Below are positions 31,320 through 62,047 of a DNA stretch of 64,000 bases, piece after piece; within the stretch, counting starts at the first letter, position 1, and the number at the start of each line of letters is the position of its first letter. The translations under genes were made by a program, and so were the position numbers. Source of the stretch: Favolaschia claudopus (Eukaryota > Basidiomycota > Agaricomycetes > Agaricales > Mycenaceae); the NCBI GenBank assembly GCA_037176885.1, contig JAWWNJ010000010.1, positions 1,922,001 to 1,986,000 on the forward strand. Reading direction: 5' to 3'. The notes under the pieces are model-generated. The model searched no databases. It was not told where the DNA came from and saw only the letters and a program-made list of their open reading frames with translations.

Positions 31320-31327
31320 TTGGCGGC

Positions 31328-31387
31328 TTTATATACGTTTGAACGACTATCTTCAAAGGAGTATATAAAGTCTTGTTACGAGACTAG
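31328..31387. repeat. 60-bp hairpin mini-element with target duplication
   Basis: tttatatac...gtatataaag folds into a stem enclosing gtttgaa/ttcaaa, and a tail ends gttacgagactag. It is flanked by ttggcggc (31320-31327 and 31388-31395; up to 9-10 bp if shifted). A second copy of the same sequence, interrupted by a 164-bp MITE, is at about 62583-62812. It looks like an internally deleted relic of the TAGTCT-ended family. Confidence 0.65.
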
Positions 31388-32638: not shown

Positions 32639-32646
32639 TTCCAACC

Positions 32647-32751
32647 CACCTGGGGCCCCGCGGATTTGCTGACAAATCGGCCTTCATGGGAGGGTTCTTC
32701 GGGTGAGTAAAACCCCCCATGAAGGCCTTGGCAACAGCGTCGGACATCACG
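32647..32751 (+). repeat. Left terminal inverted repeat of the KDZ element
   Basis: Begins cacctggggccccgcgg. It pairs with 60499-60603 read on the other strand; shared blocks include tgacaaatcgg, agggttcttcgggtg, gtaaaaccccccatgaag and gacagcgtcgg-like sequence. It also contains an internal hairpin, ccttcatggg...ccccatgaagg. Confidence 0.9.
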
Positions 32752-33999
32752 TACGGTGGGAATACGGGTGGATTTAATGCTCATTTAGGCAAACCACATC
32801 ACCTGGAAGCCGTTGAGGTTGTCGACAGCGACGGCGGCAGTCCCAGCACTTCTTCCTCGTTCTACTAGCTAGCTCTCAGGTTTCCTTCGCCTGCCCCCAT
32901 GTCTTCCGCCTCACGCTACCCTTTATCATGATGCTTGCCTCCTGGTAGCCTCATCCACTACCTCCGTCGCCGTTGCCGCCTCATCAATCTCATCCCCTTC
33001 ACTGCAAAATCCAGTAATCTGACGCGCCAAACCACACAGCTCATGCTGCTGAACGGCAATCTCAACCCTGCCCACCTTCACCTCGCTTTTTGACATTTCT
33101 TTCCCTGGTCGACGCCGTCATCAATTGAAAAATCGAAATTTACCCTCCAATTGAAAATCACCCCATACAACCAGTACAATGCTACTAACTTGCTGGCTTG
33201 CTCTCGACTTCGCCTTCATTGCCGCCGACGCCGTTACCAGGTGCAAAAAAAATCAAATACTTTCGCCAAATCGTCAACAAATTCGAAAACGAACCCTCAA
33301 TCCTGCGTAACAGCCGCCGGAAACCATTCATCTACACTAGGACGTCACCCTCGACGAGCCCCCATTTGCCCTGCCGCCGTCGTCACCAGAAATCGAGCAT
33401 TGACAGCGCCTCAACCGCCGCCGTCATTAGCAGCAACAAAGCAGCGGCCGCATTGGGAAATTAGGTGAGTCTGTTCAGCGAATGGTCCGACGAGAGAGAT
33501 CGCCTCGACGGCCATGCCATACCGACGGTGCCCTTGAGGCACAGTCGGCATTACGACCGCCCGCTGCCGTCGTTTGCTGCCTCGCATTCCCTCTACTGTC
33601 AATACCAGTAGGTAATAGAACGGACGCCGATGTACCGTATCTAGAATAAGAATCATATCTTTCTGAATCACACAAGAATTAAACACAAGATCTACAATAT
33701 CATTATACAACAAGAAATCAGCTACAAGAAGTAAGCTACAAGATATAAGCTAGCTATAGGATGTTAGTAGCTACAAGATGGTGGCAGTATGTACAGTATG
33801 GAGGTAGTAGTGACTATATACAATAGGTAGACAGTGAGTATACAGGATGTGGAGAAAACATCGAAATTACAGTGCATCAAGATATACAGAAGGGACGAGG
33901 CAACGTGACAAGGCGCCAGCGGGCACCGGCGAGCGAAGTATCATGAGTATCGTGTATGCAATTCAAAAACAAAAACAACAACCCCTCCGCCCCACCACC
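32752..33999. other. Left subterminal region of the KDZ element, no gene
   Basis: About 1.25 kb with no recognised gene. It contains Ser/Arg/Pro-type low-complexity open frames and a stretch (33700-33860) of repeated ctacaagat/gctacaag and agctagct words. It may contain the polyadenylation region of the minus-strand gene that ends at 34000. Confidence 0.45.
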
Positions 34000-36900
34000 T
34001 CACTGCTGCGGTCGCTGCTGCATGAACGCCGCCAGCAATAGGGCAATCTGATCCGGTGGTAGGTCCATCGCCGTGATTTGGGCGACGGCGGCGACGAAAT
34101 TGGGATCGGGGGCAGCAACGGGAGCAACGGGAGCGGCAGGAACGACGAACGCAGGTGGAGCAGCGGGGGGAGCGACGGGAGCGACGGGGGGAACGACGGG
34201 AGCGGCGGGGGGAACGACGGGGGCGGCGCGGTGAGAGGGCCTTTTGGAGCCGCTGCCGTTTCCTTCCTCGACGACCGCAGAGGGAGCGGCAGGGAGAGCG
34301 GCGGGAGCGGCGCGGCGAGAGGACTTGGTGCGGCCGCTGCTGTTTCCATCCTCGACGACCGCGGGGGGAGCGACGGGTATGGCAGGGGGAGCGGCGGGGC
34401 GAGAGGACCTTGTGAAGCCGCTGCCGTTTCCGTCCTTTGAGCTGTTGCTGTCTTTTGAAGAGCCGCCGTGTTTTGAAGAGCTGCCGTTCCTCGAAGAGCC
34501 GCCGTTCCTCACGGGGCTACTCTCGGGCCAGATACTGGAGACATGTGGAACGACCACTGCCTCCATCTCGCAACGGGGAGAGGTCGGAACACCGAGACCA
34601 ACAGGAAGGCCATGCTGAGTGTTATAGATGACCACCGATCTGGGAGAATCCACCTGAAGATGACGAAGGTCGTTTGGGTCGGCCCCGACACCGCCATCGC
34701 TGACCCGCGGTCGTTTTGAAACTCGTCCCGAATCGCCCGCAGTCCGCTTCTTTGACTTGGGCTTGCTACCCTCCGGCTCAAGCGCGGTGGGTTCAGTGGC
34801 GGCGGTCGACGTGGAGGCGGTGGAGGCTGTGGAGGGGGCATTGGAGCTGGGGACAGTGTCGGGAGCTGGCGGCGAGGTGGTCGTCCCATCCGGGAGAACG
34901 AAGGCGACCTTCTTGGGGGCACGCTTTGATGTGGTCGTCCCGCCGCCAATCTGCGCCGTTCTCGATCGCGTAATGCGCGGAGACGGGGGCGGCGCCGTTT
35001 CATCTTCCGACTCGACATCCTGGTTTACGCCGCCCAAGTCGAACTCCTCTCCGCTACTCTCCGGAGGCGGGGGAACAACCTTCTTCGCAGCAGACTTCTT
35101 TTGCGTCGTCCGCCTTGCCTTCCTCCCAATCGCCTTGCCCTTGCCGTTAGGTTTGTCTTCGTACTCGGTCTCTTCGTCTTCCTCCTCCGCAGCCCCGTTG
35201 CGCACCTTCTCAACGACGGCAGGCGTCTTCGGCGTCTTTTCCGGGAGTTTTGATGACGACGCCTTGCGTACCATCAGCGCGGAAGGGGGACCGTTCGCCT
35301 TCGTGAGATCAACTTCCAGCGAGTAGATGTTGCCGTCGAGATCCACGGCTTTGACTGGAAGACCGTTTGAGGTGAGCCAGAAAGAAGATTCGCCGTAATC
35401 GTTGGCTGGCGGTGCGCGGGTGTAATCATGGCAGACGATTGCAAAGTCCCCTACGACCGAATGAGTTTGATTAATAAAAGGCGAAGTCGGAACATACCTT
35501 CTTCGTACGCATGGTACTCAAGACGAAGGCCCGCAGAGGGCCCGAGTACCCGCGCCGCGATCGCTAACGACATAGCCTTGCGCTCGTCAGCATTCAACGA
35601 GCCTGTGCCCCTACCCGTGATGACCTCGTTTGGAAGGGTGACATGGAGGGGGTAGTTGAGCATGCGCACGCTCTGCTTCTGGAGGCTCTCGAGGAGGATG
35701 GCCCAGGTCATGTTGTCGGAGCGGAAGTGGAAGATGTCGCGGCCCTTCAGATCAGCTTTGCTGAGCTGAATAAGTGCGGAGCGCACCACCCCCATGGCCC
35801 TACTCGCTTCAGCGTCGCGTATCGCCCGTAGATCGTTCTTGTGCTTTTTGATTTGCGCCGCCGCCATTCCTTTAAGTTTTTTTGCGGGGGCCTTCGGGCG
35901 CGGGTTCCCCTTCAAGTCAATGACACCGATGTTGAATGGCAGCCTCTCCCCGGCTAATACCGCATTTTGAATATAACCCATGTTCACGAGGATCGCCTGG
36001 GCCTGAGCCTCTTTGACCCCGAGATCAAAGGTGGACAGGGGGACAGCGTCTTCGTCCTTGATCTCCTCGTCAGCGGGCGCGGATTTCGAGGGGTGGCTTG
36101 TGACAACAGCGGCGGGGGTGACAGCGACGGGGGCGGTGATGACGGTGCCGGATGCCCCGGAGGCGAGGGGGAGCTGGGCCTTGTTGCCCCGCAGTGAGTG
36201 AGCGTAATTATTGGCGGCGTTGGCACAATGGCCCTTCCAAAGCCGGAGAAGATCCAGCGCCCCCGTGACGTTGCTGCGAACCGTGTTCAAGGCGGGCTGG
36301 AGTTGGTCTCGGCTAACGCAAAGTCAGTTAAAACCACAAGCGAGAAGCGGCTGCAGACATACTAAATATACAGTTTAAACAACGCGAGGAAGTCGTCCTC
36401 GGTGACGCCAAGAACTTCCTCTATGAACTAAAATCTCTAAGTCAGCTATCAGCGAGCGATGCGTGAGAGTATAGATACCGATTCTGCCCTGGGCGACGCC
36501 CACTTCTTCGCAAGGTGCCCGTCTTCATTGATGTGGGGGCCGGCGTATATGAAGAAGGTGTCGAAATCGTGGTTAAGAAGGTTTACATTCATCTATAAAC
36601 CTTCAGCTTCAAAAAAGAAAGAGATGATAGTTGGAAACTCTCACCCCGCGCGTCAATAAATCGAACGTCTTCTCGTAAATCCGCTGCCGACCTTCCATCG
36701 TGATCTCCGTTTCCAGAGCGTTCTCGAGCTCGAAAGCAGCAAGAATTTCTTCTTGTTCCTCCTTCGTCTTGGACTGGAAAAGGCGGTAGGCTTTTGAGAC
36801 GTAGTTGTGGGCGAATTCATCGCCTTCCTTGAACTCGGGGTCAAGTGTCCGCATCACGTCTACGCGGTGGGACGGATGCGTGGCGTACGACGTGTAGCGC

Positions 36901-38381
36901 GTCCAAACTGTTGACCTCTTGAGTGACACCCCCGCAAGCTCCTCATGCAACTTCCCGACAAGTAGCTCCCGACGAAGACCCGTCTCCGCAACGGTAGCGG
37001 TGAGTTGTTGGGAAACGGAGTCGATGAACGACTGCATGTGGTTTCGCTGAGCCGTGGTCATGCGTCCCCCGCGCGGCTCGTTCGTGTCGTGGCCCCGATC
37101 GCCACCGCCGCTGTCGTCTTCGCCGCCGTTGTCGTCTTCGCCGCCGTTGTCGTCTTCGCCGCCGTTGTCGCCGTCGCCGTCGTCGTTGGTGTGGCCGCCG
37201 TTGTCGTCCTTGCCGTGGTCAGTGGCGTGATCGTCGACGTTGGCGTTGGCGTCAGGATCTGCGTTTCGTTCGTCGTCAGAGTCAAATAGCATGTCGGCAG
37301 TTTTGGAATCTGCCGCCGTTTTCTTGTTTTCAGCAGCAGAGCCGGTAGCCGTCGTGGTCTTCTGACGAGTTGCCGTCTTGAGTTTCCTGGGCTTCGCAGC
37401 GTTGCTAGGAGATCGATGCGGGAGAAATCCCGGAGGAGGTGGGGGAATCGGGGCAGGCTTGAAGGAGAAAGTCTCGTGCATCCTGGGCAAAGCGCCTTTC
37501 AAGTTCGTGAAATCAACGTGCGGGAGCTGCGGCTGCAGAGGGGGTGGTTGAGGTACCTCCCGAGCGGGGCGGCCGGAGATGCTGTTCGCCTCACCCCTTT
37601 CCGTTTTCCGAATAGTTGGCCTGAAACGGGTCGGGGGAGGATCAGCAAGGGGCGAGACGTCGCGGCCCCCGCCACCCACTTGGTCATCGTTGTCAGTGTG
37701 GTATCCTCCAACTCCTGCACCCTCGTAGTCAGTGAGAAACCCTCGACCTCCAGCGCCTCCGCCGACGTCGTAGTCGGTGAGGAAGCCCCCAGCTACGGCG
37801 CCTCCGCCGTCTTGACGATGCATCCAAAACTCATCCCCATCTCTTCCTCCAACGTCAACATCCATGATGTCGTCAATGAGCTCGTCGTCCTCGTCGCCAC
37901 CATCATCCCTCGAGCCGCTGGTGAAGCTGCTGTCGCGACCGTCCTCGTCGCTATCATCGCTGTTGTAAGCGGCTATCTGAGCAAAAGCCAGCGGTGTGTT
38001 GGCCAGCGGCGTGTCCTCGTCGCTGGAGACGCTGTCAGCGACGCTGTTGGGGGCGGTTGGCGGCACGCCGCCACCGCGGAGAAATGCGACTCTGGCGCTG
38101 TGAGCTGCCATCTCAGAATCGCTGCAGTATGCAGATGGCGCTGACGGTGCGGGCCTGCGTTTGCGGGGGCTACGCGGTGGTACGGGGATGTGGCGGGGTG
38201 AAGGCTGGGGCGGAAGGGACGAGAAGCGTTCCGTTTGCGGTGATAGAGTCACAATCCCGGGTAACGACATTCTGCCGTGGGTGGAGAGGGACTCGAGCTG
38301 GTCGAAAAAATCAGTGCTGTAGTTGGCGAGATCTTCCTGAGGGGCAATGGAAGGGGACGGGGGGGAAGGTGTGGGGGTCAT
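34000..38381 (-). CDS. Large uncharacterised protein of the KDZ element
   Basis: Start MTPTPSPPSPSIAPQEDLA at 38381, stop at 34000. Exon 1 (38381-36657, about 575 codons) has a disordered Ser/Pro/Asp-rich N-terminus with DDNGGED repeats (about 37120-37180). A conserved-looking region follows: TTAQRNHMQSFIDSVSQQL, HNYVSKAYRLFQSKTKEEQE and EILAAFELENALETEITMEG. Small exons give NHDFDTFFIYAGPHINEDGH and FIEEVLGVTEDDFLALFKLY. Next comes RDQLQPALNTVRSNVTGALD, and later KADLKGRDIFHFRSDNMTWA. The last exon (to 34000) has ESSFWLTSNGLPVKAVDLDG, a Lys/Ser/Pro-rich tail, and repeats of the type APPAxPxAPPAVVEDGNSSG. Proteins with this layout are familiar next to transposons in Agaricomycetes, but I know no function. 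The tail is rich in nuclear-localisation-like basic clusters. It reads toward the left TIR and shares its strand with the transposase. Confidence 0.75.
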
Positions 38382-38966
38382 GAAGTTTGCTAAACGAGGG
38401 AGGATTAGGATGGATGAATTCGGTTATGAAAATACACGTACCACGTAAGAAAAGGAACAAGATTTTGAGGGAAAGAGCAAAGGCGACGAGGTCGCGGCGA
38501 TGTTGGTTTGAGAACACAGAAACGCGGGGACAAGACAAGACGGAAAAGTCAAAAGTGAGGCGACGACAGCGCGTCGGTTTTGGTTTGAGGGTCGGTTTTG
38601 GTATTCAAGAGGGCAGAAACACAGAGTGCGTTCTACGAGCAGAGACAGACGTAATTTTGAGGCTTAGGAACACAGGAACGCGTCGAGCCGTCGACAAACA
38701 ACAGCGGACGCGTTTTTTATGAAAAACAGGCAACGACGGCGGAAAAGCGCGTCTATTTTGGAGCGTTGATTCTGAATGAGTACTGGGAGACGTAGGTAGA
38801 TGATACAACAGTTTTGAGACAGGAGGGATGAGTGGGAAGACTCTATGAGGGCGAAAAAAACGGCGTCAACGACGCAGAGAAAAAAGGGCGGATGCTGAGT
38901 CATCAACCAAATAGGCCTCACGTCTTCGAGCCCTAGCTGTAATATTTATCCTAAATGGCCTGGCCC
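38382..38966. other. Upstream region of the large KDZ-element gene
   Basis: Purine-rich stretch with no recognised gene, probably the promoter and 5' UTR of the minus-strand gene starting at 38381. It ends at the TIR of the nested element. Confidence 0.45.
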
Positions 38967-39187
38967 TAGCCTAAATGTAAATTGTTTATTTGCGTGGAGC
39001 CAGCCAGGCCCTGTCTGGCACTTTTTTCGCCTCCCTGCCGGCCTTTTTTCGATTGCCTTTTGATTGTTGTGATGAGGGCCGGCACCTCGGCTTCTGCTAT
39101 CTCATTTTTGGCAGGTTGGCAGTTCGGCTGTTCTGATTTTCTTTTTGCAGAATTGTATACCCCATGCCGTGTAGGACCTTTGCTTTA

Positions 39188-39222
39188 AAATGATTATTAT
39201 TATTATTATTATTATTATTCCA
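39188..39222. repeat. (ATT)n microsatellite
   Basis: About ten tandem att units near the left inner end of the nested element. Confidence 0.85.
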
Positions 39223-40170
39223 CTGCAAATAATATGCGGCGATATTTTGAATTGATTTGGTTACAGCACATTTTTTGCGCTTGCTTATTGGACACCATAA
39301 ATCTCCGAGAGTCCGAGATGATATTACTGTTCCACTTTAGAATGCACATATTGAGTATTTCATACAAAGTCAAGCTCAGAATGGTTATGAAGGATTCAGA
39401 ACACCGGGGCTGCCTAATACTTGCAAGATTAATTCCAGTGTACTTGAGAGAAGGAGATCCGAGAGATTGTCAATTTGCTATTCGGGGAGAGACGGAGGAA
39501 ATGTTTGCTTCTATTTAGCATCAATGGTGCCAGCTCATCCGAGTCGTCGACTCGGAGTCTCGGACTTAGTGATTCTCCACTTGCTTCCCTCACCTATCAA
39601 TGTCACCACCTTCTTGCTTGTTGCTTTACTCGACCATATTCTACCAGGCAGCTTCCAACTCTTATCTGACCATCTGACCTAATTAAAACTCAGAGCTTTT
39701 CACCGGCTTCAAGAGGTTGATCTTTTCGCTTGCCGCACGCAATATGTCAACTGGAAGGATATCAGCGCGGATCGTAACCCTCACTCACTCACATTCAACT
39801 TCAAGTAGCCAAAACCAGCAGGAGAGGAAGTTTCAGTGCCCAACTTGGCTGCGGTGGATTTGTTCTTCCGAAACGACTCAATTTGGAACCAAACAGCGAC
39901 GCCTAGTAAGAGGCTAATATAGAAAGGAGCGCAAATTCTGCAGTATGCCAACCTCTCTCTGTTCCGCACCGCCACTCCCGCCGCCAACCGACATACTCTT
40001 TACCTCATCCACCGCACCCTCATTTTTGCCTAACATGAAGCACTCTATCGCCGTCGTGCGGCATCATTCTCTGCTTCGCCTCATCTAATGTTGCTCATAT
40101 CCCGCGACGCAGCAGAACAATGACAAGCCGAACGCCTCACAGATGCACATCTGGAGTCGATGTTCTCCTA

Positions 40171-40843
40171 GCAAGGATTCGCCCAATTCTCCGCGTCCGA
40201 CTTCAAGACCGATCCCAGCAGGCGACCCAATGTTAACTTCCTCTCGGCCGCCCCCGCTGGAGCCGAGGCTGTCGCGCCTGGTGATTACAACTCTAAGCTT
40301 CGTCACATCTCGCCCGACCGAATTAATAGTAGGCCCCCTCACCGACGTTCATTTGTTTTTCGACCTGAGCATAGTGTCATCAACGGTGAACGTTTGGCGC
40401 CGCCCACTTCTCTCGTCCCCACGCTAACGACATCCTTTAGCGCGTACGCTTTGCCTCCACCCTCTCTCTCCTCCTTCCCGCCACACCACACCACACCACG
40501 TCCTCTCCGTTACCACCCTTCACCCCGCCGACGCCGCCTTCGTTCGCGTACCCGACGCCCACGCGTACCCACGTACAAAAAAACATCCCTCCCCACCTTT
40601 CACCTGTACGCGTCGCCGCCCTCGCCACTCAACTTGATCCCGACTTCCACCGCTCCGCCGACATGGTCACGGTCATTCCGCCTTCAACGCGTAACTCAAC
40701 CCTCGGCCGGGCGGCCACCCACTACCGCCCTCGACGCCGCGCTCGCCCATCGTTTCCCTTGGCGCCACGAAAGCAAAGCCACCGGCGCCGGCATTGTCCC
40801 CTCGACGCCGCGCTGCCCGCCGCCGACTAACCGGCAACAATGA
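40171..40843 (+). CDS. Doubtful proline/arginine-rich coding exon in the nested element
   Basis: An open frame of about 220 codons from an apparent acceptor (tcctag at about 40165-40170) to TGA at 40841-40843. It reads QGFAQFSASDFKTDPSRRPN and later RINSRPPHRRSFVFRPEHSV, then becomes Pro/Ser/Arg-rich. A 5' exon could lie at about 40090-40150. No family is recognised. The composition suggests either a degenerate gene or chance openness in GC-rich repeat DNA. Confidence 0.25.
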
Positions 40844-42361
40844 GGGCAAGGTCCGGGCTCGCACGAGCTGAGACTGGGATCAATATTTGCGGACGTTTGC
40901 CGGCGCCGAATAATACTGCTGCATGGAAAACGGGCGTCTCGTTACGTCGCATATTCGGTGCATCCTATATTCACGATCACCTCGGCCTCTTACTCATCGT
41001 CAACGAACAATACATCATCTGCTTGTCAGTTTCAAGTGAGTGAACCTTACCGTATTCTTTCATTCCCCCATTGTCTCCTTCTCTGCAAGCAAACGAAACG
41101 AAGTGGCGCGCTCGCCGAGGCCGCGTCTCGTCGAGTTGCGCACGAGTTGTGTTGAGTGCAAACCATTCAAGCGGTTTGCACGCTCGCACAATCTACGCGA
41201 GACGAGCTATTTACAGGAGAGGAATAGTTCCTCTTGCATCCGTTTCTCGGTTTGGTGCAATTCCATTTGTTTTGGTCTCTAATCGTTGATTTCAATACTC
41301 TATGTACTTATTAGTTTAATGTTTTCAAAACAACTACTTTCTATCACTCTTTAATAAAGCTTTTGAAGACATTTGAGTAGGTGTTTGAGAGAAAACATGG
41401 AGACTTGTACTTGGGCTGCGTCGACCGAACGGTCGGCTTTATCGGAACGCCGTCCCATTGGCTGCGACTACGGTCCGATGACCGTTTCTCTTAACGAGGT
41501 CGACGTGTTCCACAACGTGGAGCGCGTATACGACGCGTCTGAGGCGCGCAAATGGTGTTGAGTCACATAAGACACGCTATCCCTCAAATTCAAATCACCA
41601 AACGCGTCGTTCGTTCCGAAATTTCGAAACGATGACGAACTGTACCAAAAAATTTTGATGGCCACTTTGTTCGTCTGTTTTGTGGCCACCGGGCAGGCGA
41701 AAGAGCAAGTAGAAGTGTTCAGAGACATAATAAAAGGTGTATACTGATTATTTTACAAGAATTGAGGCAAGATTTTTAGCCTGTGGTTCAATTTTTGAAA
41801 GGATGCTATTTCACCATGTTCAGTAGTTAATCCTATACTGCAACTTGTCTTCTCTTCATGACTGTTCATCATCCGAAATTAAAAGTTACAAAATATCTTT
41901 GAAAACTAGTCCATTCTCGTCTCTAAATCAGTATTTTAACAGTTGTACTGCCGTCGCTGACGACCCACACCCCTGAATCACAGAAACATGTAACAAATGC
42001 AAGAATCAAAGATAACTGAAAGAATACAACGAGAGATGAGGCATAGCAAGTCGGAGAATGAACTGCCAGACAAATCATTGAAGAAAGGGTGCATTCGTGA
42101 GTTCTCATCGCAACTATCGTCTGCAAACATTGACCCGTTATCGCAACAGGAAAAGTTTTAAACGACTTGACTTCTATCAAACGCAGAGCTTACGCACAAT
42201 TACAAAGTCATTAACATTATGTTGCGTGTAGAACTCTGTCTACGACCGTCAGTTGTGTTGCTTGAAGCAATTGAGACAGTAGCTTCCTAATCGGGACCAA
42301 AGCGTTCAGTATCGGTCTTCGGACCGAGTCCCCGGAGCCAATCGGCGTCGATTCCGAACTT

Positions 42362-45177: not shown

Positions 45178-45514
45178 CAGCCTGGAGGTTAGTCTTTACT
45201 TTACTTCCACTGTTGCGTCTTCTTCCACGTACTCAGCCCCCGCGGCGCCGCCGCGCCGTCCGCCACAGACGTAAACTGGCAGCCAATCGTAGGTCAAATA
45301 AATCTCGTCGTCTCTTGTTTTCCTTACCGTGCTCGCTCTTCAACACAAAGTGGTGGATATTTTGAGTCCATCTTTCTCCGGCGACGTGCCCGAAACTTTC
45401 TATCCAGTAATATTGGTGAGTTTCCAAGATTTTTCTCGATTGCACCATTTAACTGAAAAGGTGGGCTAGTTCTTAGTGCGGACCAGCGTTACTCCCAACT
45501 ACCACCGTCATTTC
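45178..45514. other. Upstream region of the MGRRRK-type gene
   Basis: About 340 bp between the right TIR of the nested element and the next start codon. No gene was recognised. Probably promoter and 5' UTR, possibly with a leader intron (gtgagtttcc at about 45415). Confidence 0.4.
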
Positions 45515-49500: not shown

Positions 49501-52500
49501 AACGTCTTGTAACGGCGTATGTAATTGAAACAACGTAGAACGCGCTCAATTTTTGTCACACTAAATCCCTCCCTACACTTTACTTTCCGCTCGACAACTT
49601 TCCAACGAGTCCGGCGAGGCTTGATATCTAGGCGTTGGAAACACCGCCTCAACGTCTTGCTCAGACGGAGGCGAGGAGGCAATGACAATGCCATCCCGCA
49701 AGCGAATATGCCGGGCTTCGAGGTGGACACGTCTGCGACGGCATAGCTAAGAACGAGAGAACAGCGAAAGGCTGGAACGTGCGAGGTCGAAAGGTCGGCG
49801 AACCAAGCGCGTAAGACGAATGTTGCGCGCATTCCGTTCGTTGAGGTAAGTGATCGTTCATTCGCGCTACGATCGAACTGCTGGGGCCTCAACGTCACCT
49901 GGAGACGGAGGGTATCCCGTTTGGCAACCTTCCCGAGATGATTCGTTTTCGACCTTTTGTCAATAGCCTTCCCGGAGAACGATCCAGCTGTCCCGCATCG
50001 AAACGAGCGAGTCGCTTGAGCATAGGCGTCGAGGGTTGAGAGGCGCGTGGGCGCATCCAAGGCCTCCGCGAGTGGAACTTCAGGAGAGTAGGGCGAAGGT
50101 CGGTCGATGAGAACCTCAATGGTGACATGCAGCATGCTAGATGCAGAGGTGATCGTTTGAAGGAGTACCGAGGGAGTTCGTTTGAAGGTCGAGGGAGTCC
50201 GGTGCGGCGAGCTTCCCAACCGCTGAGCACATGCGGTGGAAGAGGCGCCGAGAACTAGCGGGGGTGATCAGCGGTGGTTCGGCGGAACGAATTCCGCGTG
50301 GCGCGTTGGTAAAGTCGCGGGCGGCGAGCAATTGTCATACCGAGCCTCAACGTCACGAAGACGGAAGCGTCCGGCGTGGAGTACTTCCCGAGATCGCGAC
50401 GCAGGCGATGGGAGTAACGTTGAAGCCCCTGGGGGCACTCACTTGATTCTGACCCAAAATTTCTGCCAAACTTGTCCCCGTCCCCTCGCCGAGTCTCGAC
50501 CTTCCTTTCCTTTCAAAAACACTCCTGACAACGACTAGTTTCGTTCGCAGACTGCAAGACGTCCGGCGGCAAAGGCGGCGGCGAAGCAGGAGATTAACGC
50601 AGCGCACAAAGCCGGAGGAGGAAAACGTCGACGGCGATCGTTGATGCGACGAACACGTCGAGGTGCCTACGTGGCAAGGGGGATAGTCGACACTAGACAG
50701 CTACGACGCAGACGATCACGCGCATCGCCGGAGGTGGAAGACGGTGGTGGAGGAAGAAAAAGATTGTCGACGATGGACGCAGAAGTCATTCCGGAGCCTG
50801 AGAGTATTTGCTGACTCAATCAAGTCAATCTTACAATCACACTGCCCCCCAGGCAGCAAATGCTTGAAGAAAAAAAAAATTCCCGCAAAAATAGCCACGA
50901 CCGCACCGAACGCCCCACAATTAAGTCTCTTTATCGTTGGATAAACTAGCATCCAACACGGCAACTCCTTCATATTAACTTTGTATTCCACCCTATGCCA
51001 GTCCAATAACTCGACGAGACACACGATACGTACGAATACACCAGACGCCCGCTTTGATTGCCAGAGGGAGTCGCGAAGCGACTCTACCTCTTCAAAGCTG
51101 CAATTGGCAGTACAGCTGTATGACCGAAATCAGCGTTGGAGGCTTTACGACTGATTTCGTGCAGCGGAGGAACGGAGATCAAGCTGTGCACAGCGATCTC
51201 GACGTTCCTGATACATCGTCTCGAGTGAAAGGTGCGAGAGTCGAGCGAGGCCGGTAGCGAGGCGGAGTATCTTGAAACGACGTACGCACTTGGCCTTTCA
51301 CGAACCCAAATACCTCCGCAACTTCCTGCATCCTAACGAACGAGCCTGAGGAGGCTTGAGATCGAAGTGTTGACACCACCTAGGCGCCGGCGTGCGGAAG
51401 TGGCCGTTCACGTATAACAAGGATGACACGGGCGAACATGCCGGGCCTCGACGTCTGGAAGACGGAGGCGTCCGGCGTTGGAAGGCGCACAATAAGGCGG
51501 CGACGAAGAACAAGGCCGCGAATGGACGTGGCCTTTTGAGGTCAAGGACAAGGTAAAGGAAGGCGACGCGTCGAGATCGAGCGAGCGTCGGAACGCTGGT
51601 ACATCCGAAGGCGAAGAGTAGGCGAGCGCCCAGTGCGTGTACGGCGAACGCGAAGCCAGCAGGTAGCATTGCCGACCAACTGACATCGCTACAGGGCGGG
51701 ATTGGAAGCCGATTCAGGCGCTAGAGGCGACTATCGCCCCGTTCGTAAGCGCGAGCCGTATGTCGAGTGCAGGGCGTCGAGACTTGCAGTCCAAAAGTTG
51801 GCACCACCGCCTCGACGTCTGAAAGACGGAGGCATCCGGCGGCGAAAAGCGCCATTCCTCAAAACCACGCTCGAAGTGGAAGAGGCGAAGACGAGCGACA
51901 GACGGTGCTGTCGGCGACGACGCGGACAGAGTGGCACGTACGCTCGACCTGTAGACGGTGAGCGCCCTGCTCTAGAGCTCGTGCACGGGCGGCTTTGAGT
52001 AACACCACAGTCGGGTCGTCGGATTCGACCTCGAAGCATGCGCAGTCGGCGACCGCGTCGAAGAGGCAGAACTTCCCGCTCGGAAGAGGTGGTTGGGAAG
52101 CGGTACAAAGGGGGGTGGCGCGTCGGCATTAGAGCAGACGTCGGCAATCGCTGCAGTGATGGGCGTCCAGCGTCCGCAACGCGCTGAGACGCGTGGTGGT
52201 ACGAAGCGAGCGAGGAGTCTAGTCGAAGGCGCTCGAGATGTCGGCAACGACATCGTCGTCGTTAACGTCGCCATTGAGCCTCGCGTCGCTCGTAAGACGA
52301 CGGTCGTAGTGGAGATGGTGGCGCGCGGCGCAGACGCGCCAGATGAGAAACTGACTTCCTCACAATCCTTTAAGTTTCTAACCTCCGCTTTGTCTTCTCA
52401 AAAACGCTCCTTCCCCACAGAAACCTGCGGCATACTTTCAAACGTCTTGAAAAGGGACGCGCGACTTTCTCGGGCGTGGGCGTCGAGCCATGTCGACGCG

Positions 52501-55500
52501 TGGGCACGTCCAGCCGTGAAGGAGTTGGGGTAGAACCGGGCCTCGACGTCTTCTTGCAGACGGAGGGCGTCCGATGTCGCTAGGGCGATGAGGACGAGGG
52601 AGATGAGGCGAGAGGAAGAAGAGTTCGCTGCCACATCGATAACGACGGCGTGAGAGACAGCGGCGACAACGCGGAGCGGGTCGTCGGATCGGATCCGAGA
52701 CGACGCCAGCTGAAATTGAGGACTAGTCTCCAGCCCATCTTAGTGTTCCGCCCTTTCCTCAAAATCTAGTATCGAGCCCAGCGAGACTGAGTCCAAGTCA
52801 GGCCGGAGGCTTGAATGCCAACGATCAACGACGACGGCGCGTTGACAACAGTACACCACGAGAAAAGCAGCGGGCCTCGACGTCGCTTGAAGACGGAGGG
52901 TACCTCGCGTGGTGAATTTCGTCAATCCAATCCCATCTGAGCTTACTTTCTCCTCTCCCCATCCTTGAATCACATTTCCCTTCTATCCAATGCTGCCAAA
53001 GAAGCTTCATCCCAAGTATCGGGGGAGTCGTTCGCCGAGACGTCGACAGCACGCGGAAACGACGCTTTGGCACACGCTAGCGTTTGAGGGTGACGGTGAA
53101 GCGGCCGTGAGCCTCGACGTCTCTCACAGATGGAGGGTTTCCAGCAGTCCGCAAAACGCCGTGGTCGAGCGAGATGGAAGGAGGGGAGAGAGTAGACGAC
53201 TAGGTCACAACGCATGAGGGCTGGCGAGGGACGCGGCAGAGCGGGCGGCGACGCGGAAAATCGCTTGGAATATTCGTGATCGGCTCGATGCCGTCCGTCA
53301 GCGAAACGAATTGAAGCTTGCAGAATATTTGAAACACTTGGACAGCCCTTTGAATCCCAAAATGGCGGAGACGTTAGACCAGGCAGCACAAGGACGGCGG
53401 CAAGTAACCCCCGTCGCTCACACGTCTGATTTCTCCGCAGGTTCGCTAGACCGCGTAAGATATGACCAGAGATACCTCAACGTCTCATAAGACGGAGGTT
53501 TACCCATGCTCATATCCGGCGCTAGCAGCGCGGGAGAATGCTCTGGCCGGAAAAGGTTGGAATTATGACCATTAAACGAGGCGAAAGGCTGCAATGGCGC
53601 GATCGATATGGAGAGAAACGGCAGATCCGGCGAAGGTGAAGGGCGCGAGTATTGTATGCGGCGTCGTTTGCCAGCGGCGCAGAGGTTTATTACTCCATAC
53701 CGTGCGCCTCAATGTCGTTTGCTGCCCGAGGCGTTCGCTGACGAACGCGCACTAAGCGAGCGGGACGATGGCGATGTGGAGGGAAGGCGTGTTCGTCACG
53801 AAACCACCATGTAGCTCTTACAGACACGTTTCTCGCAAACGGAAGGTTTCCGGCGACAGAGGAAGAGGCTGGTGTAGCCAGCGACGGGACGTGGTCCGGG
53901 GGAAACGGCTAACTCACTCCATTCCTGCTAACCGTACTGACCACGATTCTCCAAAACCTCTCTCCATCCAGTAACCGCATCTTCCCCTAACCTCAAGACA
54001 TTTCCAAACGGCGGCTTGAGGGAGACGAATCATTGGCGCGTAGGCAGCGTCACTTGAAGACGGAGGCGTCCAGCGGCAAGCGGCGAGTCATGGGCGGAGA
54101 GAGATGAAGGGAGAGGGAAGGAAGGGTTTCCCACGTCGTCGTTGTCGACGTGGGAGCCGGCGGCGCCAACGCGGCGACCGGAACGAAGGCAGCGAGAGCC
54201 TCAACATCTTCGGTAGACGGAGGTTTTCCGATCCTCTTGTACCTTCGCGCCCCTCGTCCTCCTTTCCTTCAACTCAAATGATTCCCATGTGAGAACTTCG
54301 AGCGATCCTCGACGACAGATACCAACGACGATTTGAATATCGCAGTCTTCGATTTATTTGAGCCATTCAATCCTCCTAGCAGCGGCCAGAGTAGAAATCG
54401 TTCTCTAAACGATGGTTTGAGGATTGCTGGTAGCCGTGTTGAAGTCAATGCGGTGAACACTGTCGGACGACGTTGGAGTAGAAAACGAAGAATGTATTTT
54501 TTACTGCTAACTACACGCTGGAGCTCAAGCCCTTGGAGCTCACGGTGCGAGTCAATTCATAAACCTGAGCTCAACGCTGAACAGCGGAGCTCTAGGTTTA
54601 ATGTAGAGGTCCGAGCTCACGCCGTCAGCGGAGCTCAAGGACATGGACAAAGCAGTCCAATTGAGTCATATTCTCAGCGCCGCGAAGCTCAGCGCTGAGG
54701 ACAAGTGGGTCCCGTAACGAGGGTCATCAATCCCGATATGTGCTATGCAAGCACAAATGTGCAAGGCAAGGAATAAATGGGATTGACGGGCGGATAGCGT
54801 CGCGTCCGTCAGAATCAAGTGAATGAAAGTGAGGGAGGCGACCAAGCGCCTCACCGTACCACTATGGAGACTACAAGTAGAGGGGAGGATACTTGAGACT
54901 CGCCAGAGGTGAAGTCTATTTCAGACTTGGTGAGGTGCGAAGAGTCTTCGGGAGGAGTTTGGTGAAGCCTCCCTGTGTGTCCACCATTGTGAAGCCTACG
55001 TGCTTCGGTTCGGGGGCTTCTCGTCCTTCCGAAGACTCGGATACTGGTTTGGCGGCTATCGGGCGCTAACCAGGCGCTGTGACCCTTCCGCAGGAGCTGT
55101 GTCACCCTGAGCAGGGCTCTGGTAATCCGGAGAGGAGGGCAGTTGTACGGATGCCCAGCCAATGTCATCTTAGTTGTGTATTGAGGTCTTCGGCGCCCGA
55201 CGCGTTCTTTATCTTCAAGAAAGCATGGTGGGCAAGGGTAAGTTATTCAATGATTATCTAATACATCATTGTGGCTATGTGACCCGCGGAACGCTACCTA
55301 ATCGGGAATGTTTGATGGACATGCTAAAGGGATATTCCTCCCATATCACACACACGTATATCAGCATGCCAGCCCGAACGTCCACCTAGGCTGTCAAAAA
55401 AGTAGAGGCGTTGCCGGGTTACATGGGCAGCAACGAATACCCAGTGCTCCTGATTGAGACGATGAATCGGGATCAGCCATACTTCCTTCTCCCAAAATGC

Positions 55501-58500
55501 CGTCGGCCGCAAACATTCCCAGAGATAATTGTCTGCACACTGACACTGCACCCGCGCAAGGTCATACGTGCTCAAGAGGGCACAGCGGCTAACAGTCGCT
55601 GCAGTTGGGGATCCCGGTGCGCCAAACACGTTGAAGAGGGCGCCAGCAACGCCGTTAAGCAAGCACCCAGTTAGACGGGCGGTGGGGGAGCGAAGGCGAT
55701 CAAGGTCTTGGTTGTCGATCTTGAGAGTGGGACGACCGTCGGTACCAACGACGGTGCGGGTAAAGCGGGAGTTCCTGTCGATGAGCATCCTCATTGACTC
55801 GTTGCGCTGTGTGAGAACGGCCAAGAACGATCCATCGGCAGGAAGGTCAGACTAGAAGTATCACACGTTGGTAGGAAATACCGCCGAATTTTACAAGACA
55901 CGACGTACCGGTGAAGTCCACTGAATCTCAAACCTGATGGAGTCCTGACCAAACCCTGTAGAATCATCCTCCAACTCATCACTGCCGAGAACATCCTCTA
56001 CCAAAGCAACATCGTCGTCGTCGTCGTCGTCCTTCTCGTCGTTGCAGCCGTTGTCGTCATCCTCAGACTCCGAATCCGAGTCCAAATTCAGTTCCACAAA
56101 GGAGCCGGCGACTGGAACGATATCGACATGGTCAGTGACGGCGGCGACGGGGGTGGTGACAACGGCGGGGTTGGTGAGAACAGCGCGGGTAGCGACGGCG
56201 CCGGTGGTGGTGACAACGGCGGGGGTGGTGAGAACAGCGCGGGTAGCGATGGCACCGGTGGTGGTGAAAACGGCGGGGGTGGCGACGGTGCTGGTGGTGG
56301 TGACAACGGCGGGAGTGGCGACGGTGCTGGTGGTGCTGACAACGGCGGGGGCAGCGACGGCGGCTGTGAACTGGGTCATGGGAGGATATACAGAGGCCGG
56401 TCGCCGAGGTAATTCTTGCAGGGATGGAGCCCAAACGTTTTGAAGACGCTGAAGCTGTTGCAGCCGCGCCCGCAGAGGCAGGTCCAGCACTACGTCTGTG
56501 CTAGCTGCAATCGCATGCTGAACAATCTGCAGCTCTTCCTGAAGCCAGCACCTCATATTCTGCCGTTCGCCTTCCAGCCGCCGTGCCTCTTCGCTGCATC
56601 TATCTGTGGAATGTATCGCGCGGATGCCGTCGCGAACATCTTCATCCGTGAGCCAGCGGGGAAGGTGGTTTCCGCAAGGTGTAATTGAGACGTCTTGATG
56701 CAGAGTTGGATCATCGCGCAGATCAGACAAACGCGCCGGAAGGGGTGTGGGAATTGGGATGCTACAGTCCGAGGGACGGAGGTCTTGAAGAGTCAAACAA
56801 AGCTCATTGTACTTTGCGACTGCCCGTAAAAGCGCGGGATGGCGCTTGGCTATCCCTTTGCGGGTGGCTTGATGTAATTTAGTCCCTGCACAATCGAAGT
56901 GAGCTAAATTCTGGATTGACGGAAACTAGTGACATACCTAAAGGTTCGCTTCGACCCCGCACGGCTCGATCCAATGTTTCCCATTCGAAGAACATACCCA
57001 CGGCGCGTTTTCGGATATTCATCTTGAGATCGCGAAGCATGAACAAATTCTGAACAAATGGAAGAGGGAGGTTCTTTAGGTCAGAAAAGTCGTCTTCCAC
57101 ATTGAGGGTCGCGTAGAGACGCTGTGCCTCCGAGGTCAATCGCGCGTGCGTGCCAAGAAGAGAATCCAGCAGGCGCTGAGATTCAGGAGACATGCCGGAG
57201 GCAGCAATGGACTGCGTTGCATCGGATATTGCTTGCTCGACATTCTCAATCTGGGTTTGAAGAGCCAAAACCTTCTCAATATCACGTCGGATGCGGTTGG
57301 GAGCATCTGAGAAGAAAATAAATCGCTTCCGTTATGACAGCGACGGTAGTGGAAGTGTTTTAACTCACAAGAGCGAATGGAGGTCTGCTCCTGCTTCTGC
57401 AAAACCCATTGGTGTCGTAGCTCATGCTCGAGGACGCCGCAATGGATCAGTACCCCGCGCGCCTTGCACCACTTCTGACGAACCGAGGCATCCTGTCGCT
57501 CGAGCCATTCGCCAAGGGCCTCAAGGCCGTCTTCATTGACGAAATCGACATACTGGTCTATCATCCAGATACGCCGCGAAAGCTAATAATCGTGTCAGCA
57601 ACCAAATTTGTACGAATAGTAAATAACCAAACAAACCCCTTGATGCCGCGTTGCTGGAATCAACTTTCGAATGCGAGACCAGAACCGCTCGACACCCTCC
57701 ATGTCTGACAGACCCATCCCGAAGCGAAACTTGGGGCTATAGTTAAGCTGACAGATCCACTGATGACCGAACGCGTGCATGGCGTTGATTACGAACGAAA
57801 GACGTTCGCGGATGCCGTCGCTCATGATTGGGAACTGAGAAAATGTCAGATTGGACGACAGCAGATGGAGATTTGGACTCGTTGACTCACCAGATCCAGA
57901 CTATGATCCGTGATACAGCCAATGTCGTAGGCCTGAACAATGGTGGCCTGAGGTGGGAGCAAACTAAAGACATGTTCCAGGAGAGCAACAATGAAGTGCT
58001 GCTGCTCTCCGGGAGTGTCTACATCGCACATAAAAATGACCTGCGAGTGTCGGCAGGTCATCACAAACACACCGCTCGCATCATACCGCTTGGGGTCGGC
58101 TTTCCGCTTCTTCTCGTTAGCGGCGTCCCAAGACTCCTTGCACATGTCTACGACGTCTTGGGGCAGAGTGCTTCGACGGGTGGAAGGACGGCGCTTGCCT
58201 CGAGCTCGGGCTTCAGCGACCCGTCGAGCCGCGTCTGCGACTTCGGCACGGGATAGAAAGTACGATGGATCAAAATATATATTCGAATCGCCGGCCCCCT
58301 TGCGGTGTCGGTAGCTGTAGCAAGCATCCCCGGCAAACTGACAATCTCCGCCCCTGGGTTTCGTTCAGAAAAGCAAAGAAAGAGCCAGTGAAAAATACCA
58401 TACTCATTCAATGGCCTTCCCCACTCCTTCCAACCGAAACAGGCGGGACATCTCTCCTGCAAGAGTCGATGGGCACGGCCAGCAGTGAGCTGCGGCGACG

Positions 58501-59882
58501 TTGGCGCTGTCGTTGTTGCTGGATCCGCCGCCGTCGTTGTTGCTGAATCCGCCGCCGTCGTTGTTGCTGGATCGGCCGCCGTCCTTGCTGCTGTATCCGT
58601 CGCCGTCGTTGCCGTGTCCACCGCTGTCCCGATTCCCGCTCCAGCATATCCCTGACCCGCCGCCGCCGTCGTCGTTGCCGGGCTCGCCGTTGCCCCCATC
58701 CCTGCTTCAGCAGCCGTTCCCGCCGTTGATCCTTGAGCTGCCGCCGCCGCCGTCGCATCTGTCATTACCGCATCTGCCCTCGCCGTGGATCTCTCACCCG
58801 CCTCCGTTGCCGCTTCAGCGGCCGCCCCCGTCGTCGCATCCGTCATTATCACATCTGTCTCGCCCGCCTCCGTCGTCACGTCCGTCATTCCCGCATCCCG
58901 GCCTGACCGCGCACTCAGATGAGGATCATACGTAGCTAATTTGCGAGCGAGAGATGCCGAGATCCGAGTCTTGAGGTTGCTGTACCAGAGTACAGCAGCT
59001 GTGAGACTCTTGCGAAACATGTCCTTGCCGCGTGAGCCCATTTTGTACCCAGGGCTAGCAACCTGGAAACCCATCCGTCGGTATATGGTTTGTAGGGCGC
59101 CAGAGAATGCTGTGATAGCATCGCAGGAGCGCTCGAAGAAGGCGCGATAGACCTCCAGAAGGTCAATGGAAATGGCAGTTCGAGGGCGCAGAGGCGACGA
59201 GGGGAAAACACCGTGCCTCACTAAGAGAACCGGCACCGAAACGCAAGGACAAGTGCTGATCTCAACTTTGCAAACATCTATATGCCACGCTTAGCCTTTG
59301 GATGAAGCAAACAAGTACGAACTCACAGGTAAAATACAGACATTGAACAGTGGACTTGACATGTTTTCCGCAAGAGCACTCATGCACGATGGACGACGGG
59401 ATTGTAATTGGGCGCTGACCGTATGATGCCTGGCGGTACAAAGCAAATGGTTCTTCTAAGCTGGCTAAGATTTGGTTCCAAGTGGAGGGAGTCGATGAGG
59501 ACGCTCTCTTTCGTTCGGAGGAGGCTGTGTGCAGAACCAAACCGAAAGAAAGCGCGTCCAAAGCGCCAACGCCAGCGCTTCTGTCGTCATCTTCTACCCA
59601 TCCGGCTATGTCAGCGTCGGAATCTTGCTCCGCCGTGCTGGCGTCTGTGACGGAGTGAGCAAGCGGCTGTGCGGGCGCGTCCAGCGTCTGTGGTGGACGA
59701 CCGAGAGCTGCCGCCAGCCTGCATTTCGCGGCGGCAAGCCTGAGACTGTGTCCAGAGGGTGCGAAAGGCTTTCGTTTTCGTGTATCATTCTTCTTGATAG
59801 GACTGGTGTACTGAATGCCCGCGCCGGAACGCGTTGCTGTCTGAGCGGCTCGACTGGAACGTTTGGGCTTGGTGACGGGCAT
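46578..59882 (-). CDS. KDZ transposase with CxC1 cluster and C-terminal Ulp1-like protease
   Basis: One minus-strand gene of about ten exons, start MPVTKPKRSSRAAQTATRSG at 59882, stop at 46578. Exon 1 ends and exon 2 (from 59277) begins in a CxC1-type cysteine cluster: HECSCGKHVKSTVQC, YVCKVEISTCPCVSVPVLLV, RHGVFPSSPLRPRTAISIDL. A Thr/Ala repeat linker (about residues 303-445) and CPACFGWKEW follow. The KDZ core reads GGDCQFAGDACYSYRHRKGA, DPSYFLSRAEV, YDASGVFVMTCRH, DVDTPGEQQHF, YDIGC, NAMHAFGHQWICQLNYSP and MEGVERFWSRIRKLIPATR (acidic catalytic residues present). Then come coiled-coil-like exons (57560-56890), a second Thr/Val repeat linker and an acidic DDDDDDD run (about 56010). The protease exons follow: WEKEVWLIPIHRLNQEHWVF and LYFFDSLGG (His, Asp; 55500-55380), DVMLLIRRMAFLALRHGHHL (47518-47396), and DQAHQSNGYDCGIWVLSVMA (catalytic Cys; 46751-46700). 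The LTR element and the foldback MITE lie in the last two introns. No stop or frameshift was needed, so the protein may still be encodable if these introns splice. Confidence 0.88.
46772..47377. mobile_element. Foldback MITE, 606 bp, 8-bp TSD, in a transposase intron
   Basis: Ends ctcgg.aaaa.ccgtagttt continuing taggac, in inverted orientation, flanked by TGAGAACA at 46764-46771 and 47378-47385. Nearly the whole element is self-complementary: blocks such as ccgaaacttattgtttcgg and ggcaacagttttgg recur on both arms. Without it the intron is 49 bp (minus-strand gtatgcg...tactaac...tttgtcag). It has no coding capacity and could form a long hairpin RNA when transcribed. Confidence 0.9.
47567..47929 (-). 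repeat. Left LTR (3' LTR if the element is minus-oriented)
   Basis: 363 bp, begins tgtgaagcctacg and ends cccatatcaca on the plus strand; matches 54988-55350 base for base as far as I can read. Confidence 0.93.
49647..54222. repeat. Dispersed hairpin motif array inside the LTR element
   Basis: The motif cctc(a/g)acgtc-N(4-9)-agacggagg is a short imperfect palindrome. It recurs at about 49648, 49888, 50345, 51446, 51810, 52541, 52875, 53112, 53475, 53707 (weak), 54045 (partial) and 54199. All copies have the same orientation and many are followed by cgtccggcg or a gg-t-t variant. Spacing runs from about 240 to 1,100 bp with many intervals of 240-460 bp. Between copies, GA-rich and CT-rich segments alternate. 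Further gagctc palindromes cluster at 49136-49195 and 54521-54640. Confidence 0.75.
54972..54987 (-). promoter_or_regulatory. Candidate primer-binding site
   Basis: Read on the minus strand, atggtggacacacagg directly follows the LTR end ggcttcaca. The tgg one base in is typical of tRNA-primed reverse transcription. The matching tRNA was not identified. Confidence 0.4.
54988..55350 (-). repeat. Right LTR (5' LTR if the element is minus-oriented)
   Basis: 363 bp, second copy of the LTR; followed by cacacgtata, with CACAC repeating the left flank. Confidence 0.93.
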
Positions 59883-60498
59883 TATTACATGGCGGAAAAA
59901 AGCAAGGTACGCATCATTCCATCAACACGAAGCGGCACCCTCGGCATCCGTGTTTCCATCATCAGTCGATCAACTCTCCTTGATCGTCACCATTCTACCT
60001 CTCCCCATGGTTCAAAAGCGGTAACCAACGTATGGCGCAGGACGGGACATGCCCTATCACTACTGAACTGAAAATCAGCAACAACGCGAAACAACGGCGG
60101 CGCGAAACAACAGAAGCGCGAAACAACAGAAGCGCGGAAGAACAGAAGTGCGTGAAATGATCCCTACTAAGTACTTACAACACTGGAAGGGGTTCAGGTA
60201 TGTTTGTGCAGTGCTCTATGTATTCTTGTACCTTGTTGGCACCTCACAGGCATTATATGCCACTCATTCGAATGATCGTGAAGCCCCAGCAGTACGACGA
60301 CAAAGCCCTCTCTACAAAGTGAAGAGTCTCCGATAGTGTTTCGAACCCTAGGTATTATAGGTATATTCCTCAGCAGCTGCAGGCATCACTCTATTCCGCG
60401 CCAAATTCTTCGAATAACACCCGCCGCTGTCATTAACTTGCGACGTGTCTTAACTTAGAAGCCGCCGCCGCTCCATGCCCGCATATACGACATTATTA
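59883..60498. other. Right subterminal region of the KDZ element
   Basis: Transposase promoter and 5' UTR side. It has no gene, but carries short tandem repeats of gcgaaacaacagaa type at about 60078-60150 and pieces of open frame without motifs. Confidence 0.5.
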
Positions 60499-60603
60499 TG
60501 TGATACCCGACGCTGTCGCCAAAGGCTTCATGGGGGGTTTTACGCACCCGAAGAACCCTGCCTTCATGCCCGATTTGTCATCAAAACCGCGGGGCCAGTG
60601 CTG
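60499..60603 (-). repeat. Right terminal inverted repeat of the KDZ element
   Basis: Inverted counterpart of 32647-32751; on the minus strand it begins cagcactggccccgcgg. It contains the matching internal hairpin (ttcatggggggtttt with aaccctgccttcatg). Confidence 0.9.
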
Positions 60604-62047
60604 TTCCAACCTTACCATTGTATTGCTCTGATACCTTCAACTCCGTCAGGATAACCAACAATCAGTCGATTCCCTCTGCGCATCTGGGTCTTCCCACCAG
60701 GTCGACTGAACACAGAACCCCTTTTTCGTATCCAGCGCGACTCGCTGCAGACTCGTCACAAGAAGATCGTATCTGGAGCCGAATTCTTTGCCTCGCATTG
60801 CAGCCCGAAGCACCGGCCCGAACTTTTCGGACATCCAGCAGTACCGGCTTTCGCGTGGGCCTATTGACGGTTTGCAAGAAGTTCAAGGTCTATGCTTCAT
60901 TTTCACCTTTGCTCCCATGCTGACAGTCTTTTGAACGCATAGCGACTCGCCACTCCATACGTGTACCGAAACGCCCTACTAAAATTCGAATCAAATGCTC
61001 GGTCTCTTGCGCTGCAACTTCAACGAGAGCCTGACCTGGGCCGTCACATCAGAACCCTCGCCTTTTGCTTTCCCGGTAACACAATGCCGGTCGAGTTCAG
61101 CAAAATTGTCATGTATACTTTTCGCTTGACTGAATTGCACGCCGACACCTGTCGGCCCATATCCTGGGATTCGTTTACATGTCTTGGCGAGACAGCAGGG
61201 GAAACCCTCCGGGTTTTCAGAGGCATTGAAATATGCGATATTCAAGGCGTTGACCCCGGTCCATTTTGTCTATTTTCGCAAATTCGGGAATTCCAGTGGA
61301 AGTCTTCGAGGGAATTCATTACAGATTCCAGTTTGATCCCAAAGGCTGCGTTTGGTTTACTCGAGAATTTGACGGTGGACACGTTTTACGAGTCGTTTCT
61401 GGATGTGCTTGCGCACATGGAGTGAGTTGCAGAGTTCTTTTGTGTCCCTCGCATACTCAATTTCTTGACAGGCTGCCTCATTTGCGAACAGTCACCTTCG
61501 ACTCGGATTCTGCCACTGGCGGGGCCCTGTTCTTCCAAAAGCATGGCGCCAAAATTCAGGAGCTCACGGTATCTGAGTTCCAAATGACAGACAATAGACT
61601 GGGGTCCGGGGATTTGGAGCAATTGTCCGTCTCTAAAGACTCTGAAAATTCACGTCTTTTGTGGAACACAAGTGCGTGTGCCTTGTTCTTCGGTGTATGT
61701 CACGCCTCTCTTATATGTTCGAGCTGTAGTATCCTGCTGCTCTGCAGGTGCCTTGGTTCCATACGTGCAATATTCACGTTCATCTCGAACGCCTTATCTT
61801 TTTAATACCACATGAAAGCTACGCAAGGTATGTTACGAATGTCGCATATGGTTCGGATTGCTTGTTACGCTGTTTTATAGGCTCATCCAACATCAACCCA
61901 CTCACATCAACGACTTGATCGAGGAACTGAGAACCACAATGTTGTTCCCAAACCTGCGTGAGGTAGAACATCCTCTCTGCAAATGGCCCAAAAACGAGTG
62001 AGTCCTAATTTCATGACACCCGAGCTTGTGTTGATGAGCGTACCAGG

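Follow-up and report, generated by a model that had tools for sequence, protein, structure and literature searches.

The described transposons closest to the one treated here are KDZ1, KDZ2 and KDZ3 of Cryptococcus neoformans, elements of ~9-11 kb with terminal inverted repeats (TIRs) of 241, 139 and 169 bp, respectively, and with KDZ and CxC1 domains (PMC12810828). They were captured moving into a reporter gene, where KDZ2 and KDZ3 hit both introns and exons, and their target-site duplications (TSDs) measure 8 bp in KDZ1 and 4-8 bp in KDZ2 and KDZ3 (PMC12810828). In Agaricomycetes, the Kyakuja families combine a KDZ transposase and 5'-CA..TG-3' ends with 7-bp duplications and have no TIRs; Zisupton and Dileera form 8-bp duplications, Zisupton with TIRs (PMC12730594). 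In Pleurotus ostreatus, the cysteine cluster of intact KDZ elements is CxC2 and not one of the others (PMC7641404). Here we analysed a stretch of 64,000 nucleotides from the invasive basidiomycete mushroom Favolaschia claudopus, hereafter the window (C10:1922001-1986000 of a 264.6-Mb, 460-contig assembly, C numbers denoting contigs of that assembly), in which a KDZ element interrupts an F-box gene. Very probably, an element of ~13.3 kb inserted into the second intron of this gene on C10, which has two homologous contigs, and was then hit by three nested insertions. The event itself is clear, and elements of this kind have been described before. The literature searched on the KDZ superfamily gave us no account of this locus, and on the genome of F. 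claudopus it gave us a genome note only.

By its domains, TIRs and 8-bp duplications, the window element is a member of the KDZ superfamily. It has in common with KDZ1-3 the KDZ and CxC1 domains, long TIRs, a TSD and, as in KDZ2 and KDZ3, insertion into an intron, yet its TIRs (~105 bp) are shorter and its body (~13.3 kb) is longer. KDZ1-3 are mobile in the laboratory, and nested insertions are not mentioned in the available text on them (PMC12810828), whereas the window element is known from sequence and holds three. In the window element we also find a C48 domain and two accessory genes, here called B and C. Unlike the CxC2-bearing elements of P. ostreatus (PMC7641404), its transposase scores higher for the N-terminal cysteine cluster CxC1 (PF18802; 37.6 bits vs a cut-off of 26.9) than for CxC2 (21.9 bits). 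Among the groups of PMC12730594, Zisupton or Dileera would fit by the length of the duplication and Zisupton by the presence of TIRs as well, a comparison made by description. The KDZ transposase and the CA..TG ends are shared with Kyakuja, but membership of these families was rejected, as 8-bp duplications and long TIRs stand against the described 7-bp duplications and lack of TIRs (PMC12730594). KDZ elements that carry TET genes, treated in the same work (PMC12730594), differ again: no TET/JBP dioxygenase Pfam match was obtained from the 29 open reading frames (ORFs) of the window element that were scanned, a part of those of at least 75 amino acids.

The insertion site and its empty homologues

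The exact 8-bp TSD TTCCAACC stands at 32639-32646 and 60604-60611 of the window. The element between its copies, nested insertions included, occupies 32647..60603 (27,957 bp, listed without strand; ~13.3 kb without the nested pieces), as delimited by its ends, the TSD and a sibling element on C47. Inverted repeats close both ends (100 nt aligned, 86% identity, BLAST E 1e-23), forming imperfect TIRs of ~105 bp at 32647..32753 on the forward strand and at 60497..60603 on the reverse. When one copy of the TSD is omitted, the flanks join into a phase 2 intron of 55 nt, GTGAAG...TCAG, which is intron 2 of the F-box gene. Its 5' piece, with the donor GTGAAG, lies at 32630..32646 (forward strand) and ends in the left TSD; the right TSD and the 3' piece, with the acceptor TCAG, together fill 60604..60649 (forward strand). 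Exons 1-2 of the gene precede it at 31755..32629 (forward strand; ~89-90% identical to C3 and C92, in whose alleles intron 1 measures 53 nt), and exons 3-8, placed by three-way alignment with C3 and C92, follow at 60650..63042 (forward strand). The F-box-like Pfam match falls slightly below cut-off (23.8 vs 24.3 bits). Thus the ends, the exact TSD and the rebuilt GT-AG intron, all of which the preliminary description had read from the window, are borne out, and the two flanks align to one gene.

The insertion can also be viewed against homologous copies. Downstream of the F-box gene lies a gene with a MutS domain (PF01624), which we take to be MSH2, and its MutS-domain exon is matched at exactly three places of the assembly, one each on C10, C3 and C92. 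In the syntenic regions of C3 (91% identical to the window) and C92 (89%) the F-box gene is uninterrupted at the target, with a GT-AG intron of 55 nt at the exact position in both; the intron of C92 contains TTCCAACC once, and C3 has TTCTAACT at the same place. With two uninterrupted homologous copies, the empty site is therefore observed directly, beyond reconstruction. The C92 allele encodes an intact protein of 696 amino acids and has seven introns of 49-76 nt. The preliminary description had matched the rebuilt protein to a paralogue at 26583; the reconstruction of the gene holds, but exon 1 shares only 50% identity with this paralogue, so that the comparison is properly made with C3 and C92, which are also the better evidence.

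Presence in one of three homologous copies does not by itself polarise gain and loss, and the 28 kb could in principle be ancestral and deleted from C3 and C92. This would need an exact removal, together with one copy of the duplication, in both homologues or in their ancestor. Given that the piece is bounded exactly by ends found throughout a transposon family, that C92 has the duplication once, and that both homologues keep a 55-nt intron and the coding frame, we regard such a history as highly improbable. An assembly chimera, fusing a repeat to a split gene, might be feared in a repeat-rich genome whose assembly (PacBio, Falcon; PMC10905254) seems to contain three diverged copies; it is scarcely credible here, where matching copies of the TSD occupy both junctions and synteny with C3 and C92 continues on both flanks.

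The element family across the assembly

The ends of the window element match 40 and 30 places in the genome (40 with the left-end probe, the window element included), and the ~105-bp repeat pair thus recurs many times elsewhere. We tested 14 element end pairs (window, C148, C77, C98, C89, C26, C15, C12, C88, C76, C27, C18, C5 and C47), and in all 14 an exact 8-bp duplication lies immediately outside the CA..TG ends. Thirteen of these pairs are independent, C18 and C27 holding one insertion on two homologous contigs; the count covers end pairs with both ends, and 23 of the 40 left-end matches, with no partner end located, stand outside it. The 13 distinct TSD 8-mers agree pairwise at no more than five of eight positions, and hence the family has no fixed target word. 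Elements of 3.5-13 kb are bounded by the 13 sibling end pairs. When joined flanks served as query, an unoccupied counterpart was retrieved for seven of the 13 independent sites, that is, for the window and for six of the 12 siblings: C148, C77, C15, C47 (twice), C27 and C88. The counterpart of C88 is a partial match (88%), and that of C77, on the same contig, is no allele but a copy of a repeat. The preliminary statement that few large KDZ elements display their ends, target site and empty site must accordingly be given up, as several do so within this assembly and KDZ1-3 of C. neoformans were caught inserting (PMC12810828).

The sibling on C47 (C47:813617-826659; 13,043 bp; TSD GGCAAAGC) is the most informative for what follows. 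Like the window element it has an 8-bp TSD and is collinear over all three genes, with a KDZ exon 72% identical in amino acids; unlike it, this 13.0-kb copy has none of the three nested insertions and sits in an exon, that of an aldo/keto reductase gene (PF00248), whose joined flanks read through in frame. Its target site is empty in C46 (100% over 117 bp) and in C125 (97%). The family belongs to a large KDZ expansion: counting itself, the KDZ exon of the window transposase matches 24 places in the genome at an identity of at least 55%, and the assembly contains at least 202 KDZ-domain matches (best 150 of 699 candidates scored). For the annotation of this expansion, the end pairs provide a tested set of boundaries. 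A single assembly thus shows one KDZ insertion as an occupied site beside two naturally empty ones, together with siblings that have exact ends. This makes the target duplication of a mushroom KDZ family, its ends, its genes and its nesting readable without guesswork.

A second three-way polymorphism was noted in passing. A sibling of ~3.7 kb occupies the same site in C18:1968622-1972313 and C27:1372962-1376653, and C176:65829-65900 is empty (96%).

Nested insertions and the fate of the host gene

Compared in three pieces, the C47 sibling follows the order of the window element along its whole length, and three blocks of the latter, 14.7 kb together, have no counterpart in it, each block showing its own borders and flanking duplications. 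Without the nested insertions and their duplications, the window element measures 13,259 bp, against 13,043 bp in C47. The preliminary description had spoken of a 28-kb KDZ transposon in a 55-bp intron; a KDZ element does lie in the 55-nt F-box intron, but the size does not hold, collinearity with C47 resolving it into ~13.3 kb of KDZ element and 14.7 kb of nested sequence. Nested insertions can therefore double the apparent size of a KDZ element, which calls for caution. The first insertion (38928..45215; 6,288 bp, listed without strand) lies between genes B and C, is multicopy with inverted ends, and is flanked by CGTCTTC at 38921-38927 and 45216-45222. Elsewhere in the genome, long matches to its left end start at window 38922-38928, and an inverted partner is found 5.6-6.4 kb away at 12 or more other places and 11.6 kb away at one (best 40 of 61 candidates scored in both cases). 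The second (46772..47378; 607 bp, likewise without strand) is a long palindrome resembling a miniature inverted-repeat transposable element (MITE), its self-inverted match extending over 618 columns at 81%; GAGAACA flanks it at 46765-46771 and 47379-47385, and it falls within a 49-nt intron of the transposase gene, with donor and acceptor retained.

The third insertion (47567..55350, reverse strand; 7,784 bp) resembles a long terminal repeat (LTR) retrotransposon and is placed within a 51-nt intron of the same gene, again with donor and acceptor retained. Its LTRs, at 47567-47929 and 54988-55350, are identical over 363 bp and have TG..CA ends; a 5-bp duplication, CACAC, stands at 47562-47566 and 55351-55355, and each of the 39 other matches scored (best 40 of 76 candidates) starts at the border of the LTR. 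A stretch resembling a primer-binding site lies 1 nt inside the LTR, and no tRNA was matched to it. No Pfam match to reverse transcriptase or integrase above cut-off was obtained from the ORFs of this insertion that were scanned, and it is possibly non-autonomous. An alternative view of the 375-bp direct repeat here, as an internal rearrangement, was rejected, since TG..CA ends, the 5-bp duplication and multicopy borders define an LTR pair.

In the reading that we favour, a KDZ transposon of ~13.3 kb, with a CxC1-KDZ-C48 transposase and two accessory genes, entered the 55-nt intron 2 of the F-box gene and created the 8-bp duplication on landing, as the ends, the duplication and the two empty homologues show. 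Afterwards it would have been struck by the 6.3-kb repeat, the 7.8-kb LTR element and the 0.6-kb palindromic element. The borders of the nested pieces are directly visible; that these pieces followed the landing is what we infer. With both ends intact and the transposase frame open in our model, a stuffed element could conceivably be mobilised, whether in cis or in trans, and some or all of the nested pieces might have been taken up elsewhere before a unit of ~20-28 kb jumped into the F-box intron. This order of events seems unlikely: the 13 sibling end pairs span 3.5-13 kb, the LTR element is very young because its LTRs are identical, and no other stuffed copy was seen, though without a genome-wide result for gene B.

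The KDZ element is not the only lesion of the F-box copy. An extra 7 bp in an exon at 61601 shift its frame relative to C3 and C92, and a 770-bp insertion (62044-62813), missing from both, lies in the last intron; the 8-bp duplication that flanks the latter, GTACCAGG, overlies the last 3' splice site, and the acceptor is consequently duplicated. Because of the frameshift and the 770-bp insertion, besides the KDZ element, the window copy is probably dead, and its damage is probably recent. The transcript would be cut or terminated within the 28-kb insert, leaving a pseudogene, and the other F-box copies would supply the function. Separately, a 52-bp sequence occurs at 31327-31378 and 62584-62635 (98% alike), once on each side of the KDZ element, its second copy falling within the 770-bp insertion.

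Several observations weigh against the course of events that we favour. At the sites of the first and second nested insertions, C47 holds 0.7 and 0.46 kb of unaligned sequence. No evidence was found that dates the nested insertions relative to the landing in the F-box intron, nor was a second copy of the stuffed element met, the nearest other transposase exon in the genome being 72% identical in amino acids. Joined flanks gave no empty counterpart for six of the 12 siblings (C98, C89, C26, C12, C76 and C5); for C98, C89 and C26 the search scored the best 40 of 259 candidates, a set filled by a single repeat flank. The C3 allele was traced through four introns, and only C92 is seen intact to the stop. 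The 7-bp frameshift at 61601 is known from one polished assembly, and it is from sequence that we infer the loss of function of the F-box copy. In addition, the window branch of the F-box gene has 28 nonsynonymous to 35 synonymous changes (53:57 in C3, 88:58 in C92) and hence no amino-acid excess, so that its death is either recent or invisible to substitution counts. The lack of visible relaxation of selection on this branch, together with the intact donor GTGAAG and acceptor TCAG, is what would be expected of a functional gene from which a 28-kb intron is spliced out. We find this very unlikely, as the frameshift and the 770-bp insertion in the last intron stand against it and an intron of 28 kb would be extreme beside the 49-76 nt of C92.

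Genes of the element, short introns and the state of the assembly

The transposase gene is modelled on the reverse strand (46578..59882) with ten exons, its splice sites chosen among several GT-AG pairs per junction. Exons 1-8 (59882-59327, 59277-58404, 58353-57891, 57834-57637, 57582-57369, 57306-56938, 56885-55909 and 55851-55354) give 1,383 amino acids free of stops; exon 9 (47513-47403) lies beyond the LTR element and exon 10 (46739-46578), with the stop, beyond the MITE, both open in phase, and the modelled frame is open over ~1,470 codons. Every change of frame fits an intron of 49-62 nt, with alternative GT-AG pairs at each junction. One of these changes, near 59300, had been considered as a disabling frameshift, C47 having a single ORF of 672 amino acids; this was rejected, as the alignment and the listing of GT-AG pairs fit short introns. 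The KDZ domain (PF18758) scores 166.3 bits (cut-off 26.6) over profile positions 5-217 of 217. The first part of an Ulp1/C48 domain is found in exons 1-8 (21.3 bits vs a cut-off of 20.7), and C48 continues past the MITE and the LTR element: exon 10 scores 17.5 bits, under the same cut-off, and contains NGYDCGIW, presumably the catalytic cysteine region of C48.

Two further genes, both conserved and without Pfam family, are collinear with C47. Gene B (34003..38423, reverse strand) shows 46-57% amino-acid identity to its C47 counterpart over four segments, with a ratio of nonsynonymous to synonymous substitution rates (dN/dS) of 0.29-0.34 in the three segments with estimable dS. No Pfam match was returned for its three window ORFs, and the four ORFs of C47 gave a single sub-threshold one (baeRF_family3, 19.9 vs 31.5 bits); for the 604-amino-acid ORF at 36612-38423, the sole part searched, there was no homologue at E 1e-3 among 7,989 candidates scored. 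Gene C (45477..46217, forward strand), a small ORF, is 71% identical to C47 in amino acids over 190 codons (dN/dS 0.24); it has no Pfam match in the window and one sub-threshold match in C47 (13.9 vs 27 bits), and no homologue at E 1e-3 appeared among 617 candidates. Overall, 10 of the 13 segments compared between the window and C47 have an estimable dS, and in these dN/dS ranges from 0.07 to 0.34; dS itself runs from 0.7 to 2.6 and is partly saturated. Judged by these comparisons, the transposase, gene B and gene C are kept by purifying selection between the two elements.

The F-box gene was hit by the KDZ and 770-bp elements, the transposase gene by the LTR element and the MITE; these four, all of the gene-hitting insertions in the part of the window studied, are located in or at introns of ~49-55 nt, with splice sites kept. 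Introns make up ~16% and ~10% of the two genes, respectively, which gives a naive chance of ~2e-4, computed after the fact. Short introns may have acted as refuges at this locus, and the stuffed element may still express its transposase by splicing introns of ~0.66 kb and 7.8 kb, a notion to which we attach little probability. Transcription of the transposase would probably stop in the LTR element, so that the KDZ protein made would lack the end of its C48 protease. The C47 sibling, in an exon, runs counter to a general rule of intron refuge. A preference for introns as a rule of the KDZ family was likewise rejected, the C47 target being the aldo/keto reductase exon, in frame across the site.

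At three loci, homologous contigs occur in threes: C10/C3/C92 (~90% identity), C47/C46/C125 and C27/C18/C176. The published assembly of F. claudopus CIRM-BRFM 2984 comprises 265 Mbp, with 86.8% of BUSCO genes duplicated (PMC10905254). Because the MutS-domain exon has three matches and a few flank matches also come in threes, the 265-Mb assembly appears to comprise some three diverged copies of the genome, whereas two would be expected of a dikaryon. Away from the insertion, the F-box paralogue at 26583 is bracketed by inverted repeats of ~750 bp at 23542-24282 and 29919-30641 (89%). The part corresponding to 22.7-27.1 kb is reversed in C92 relative to the window, which suggests an inversion by way of these repeats.

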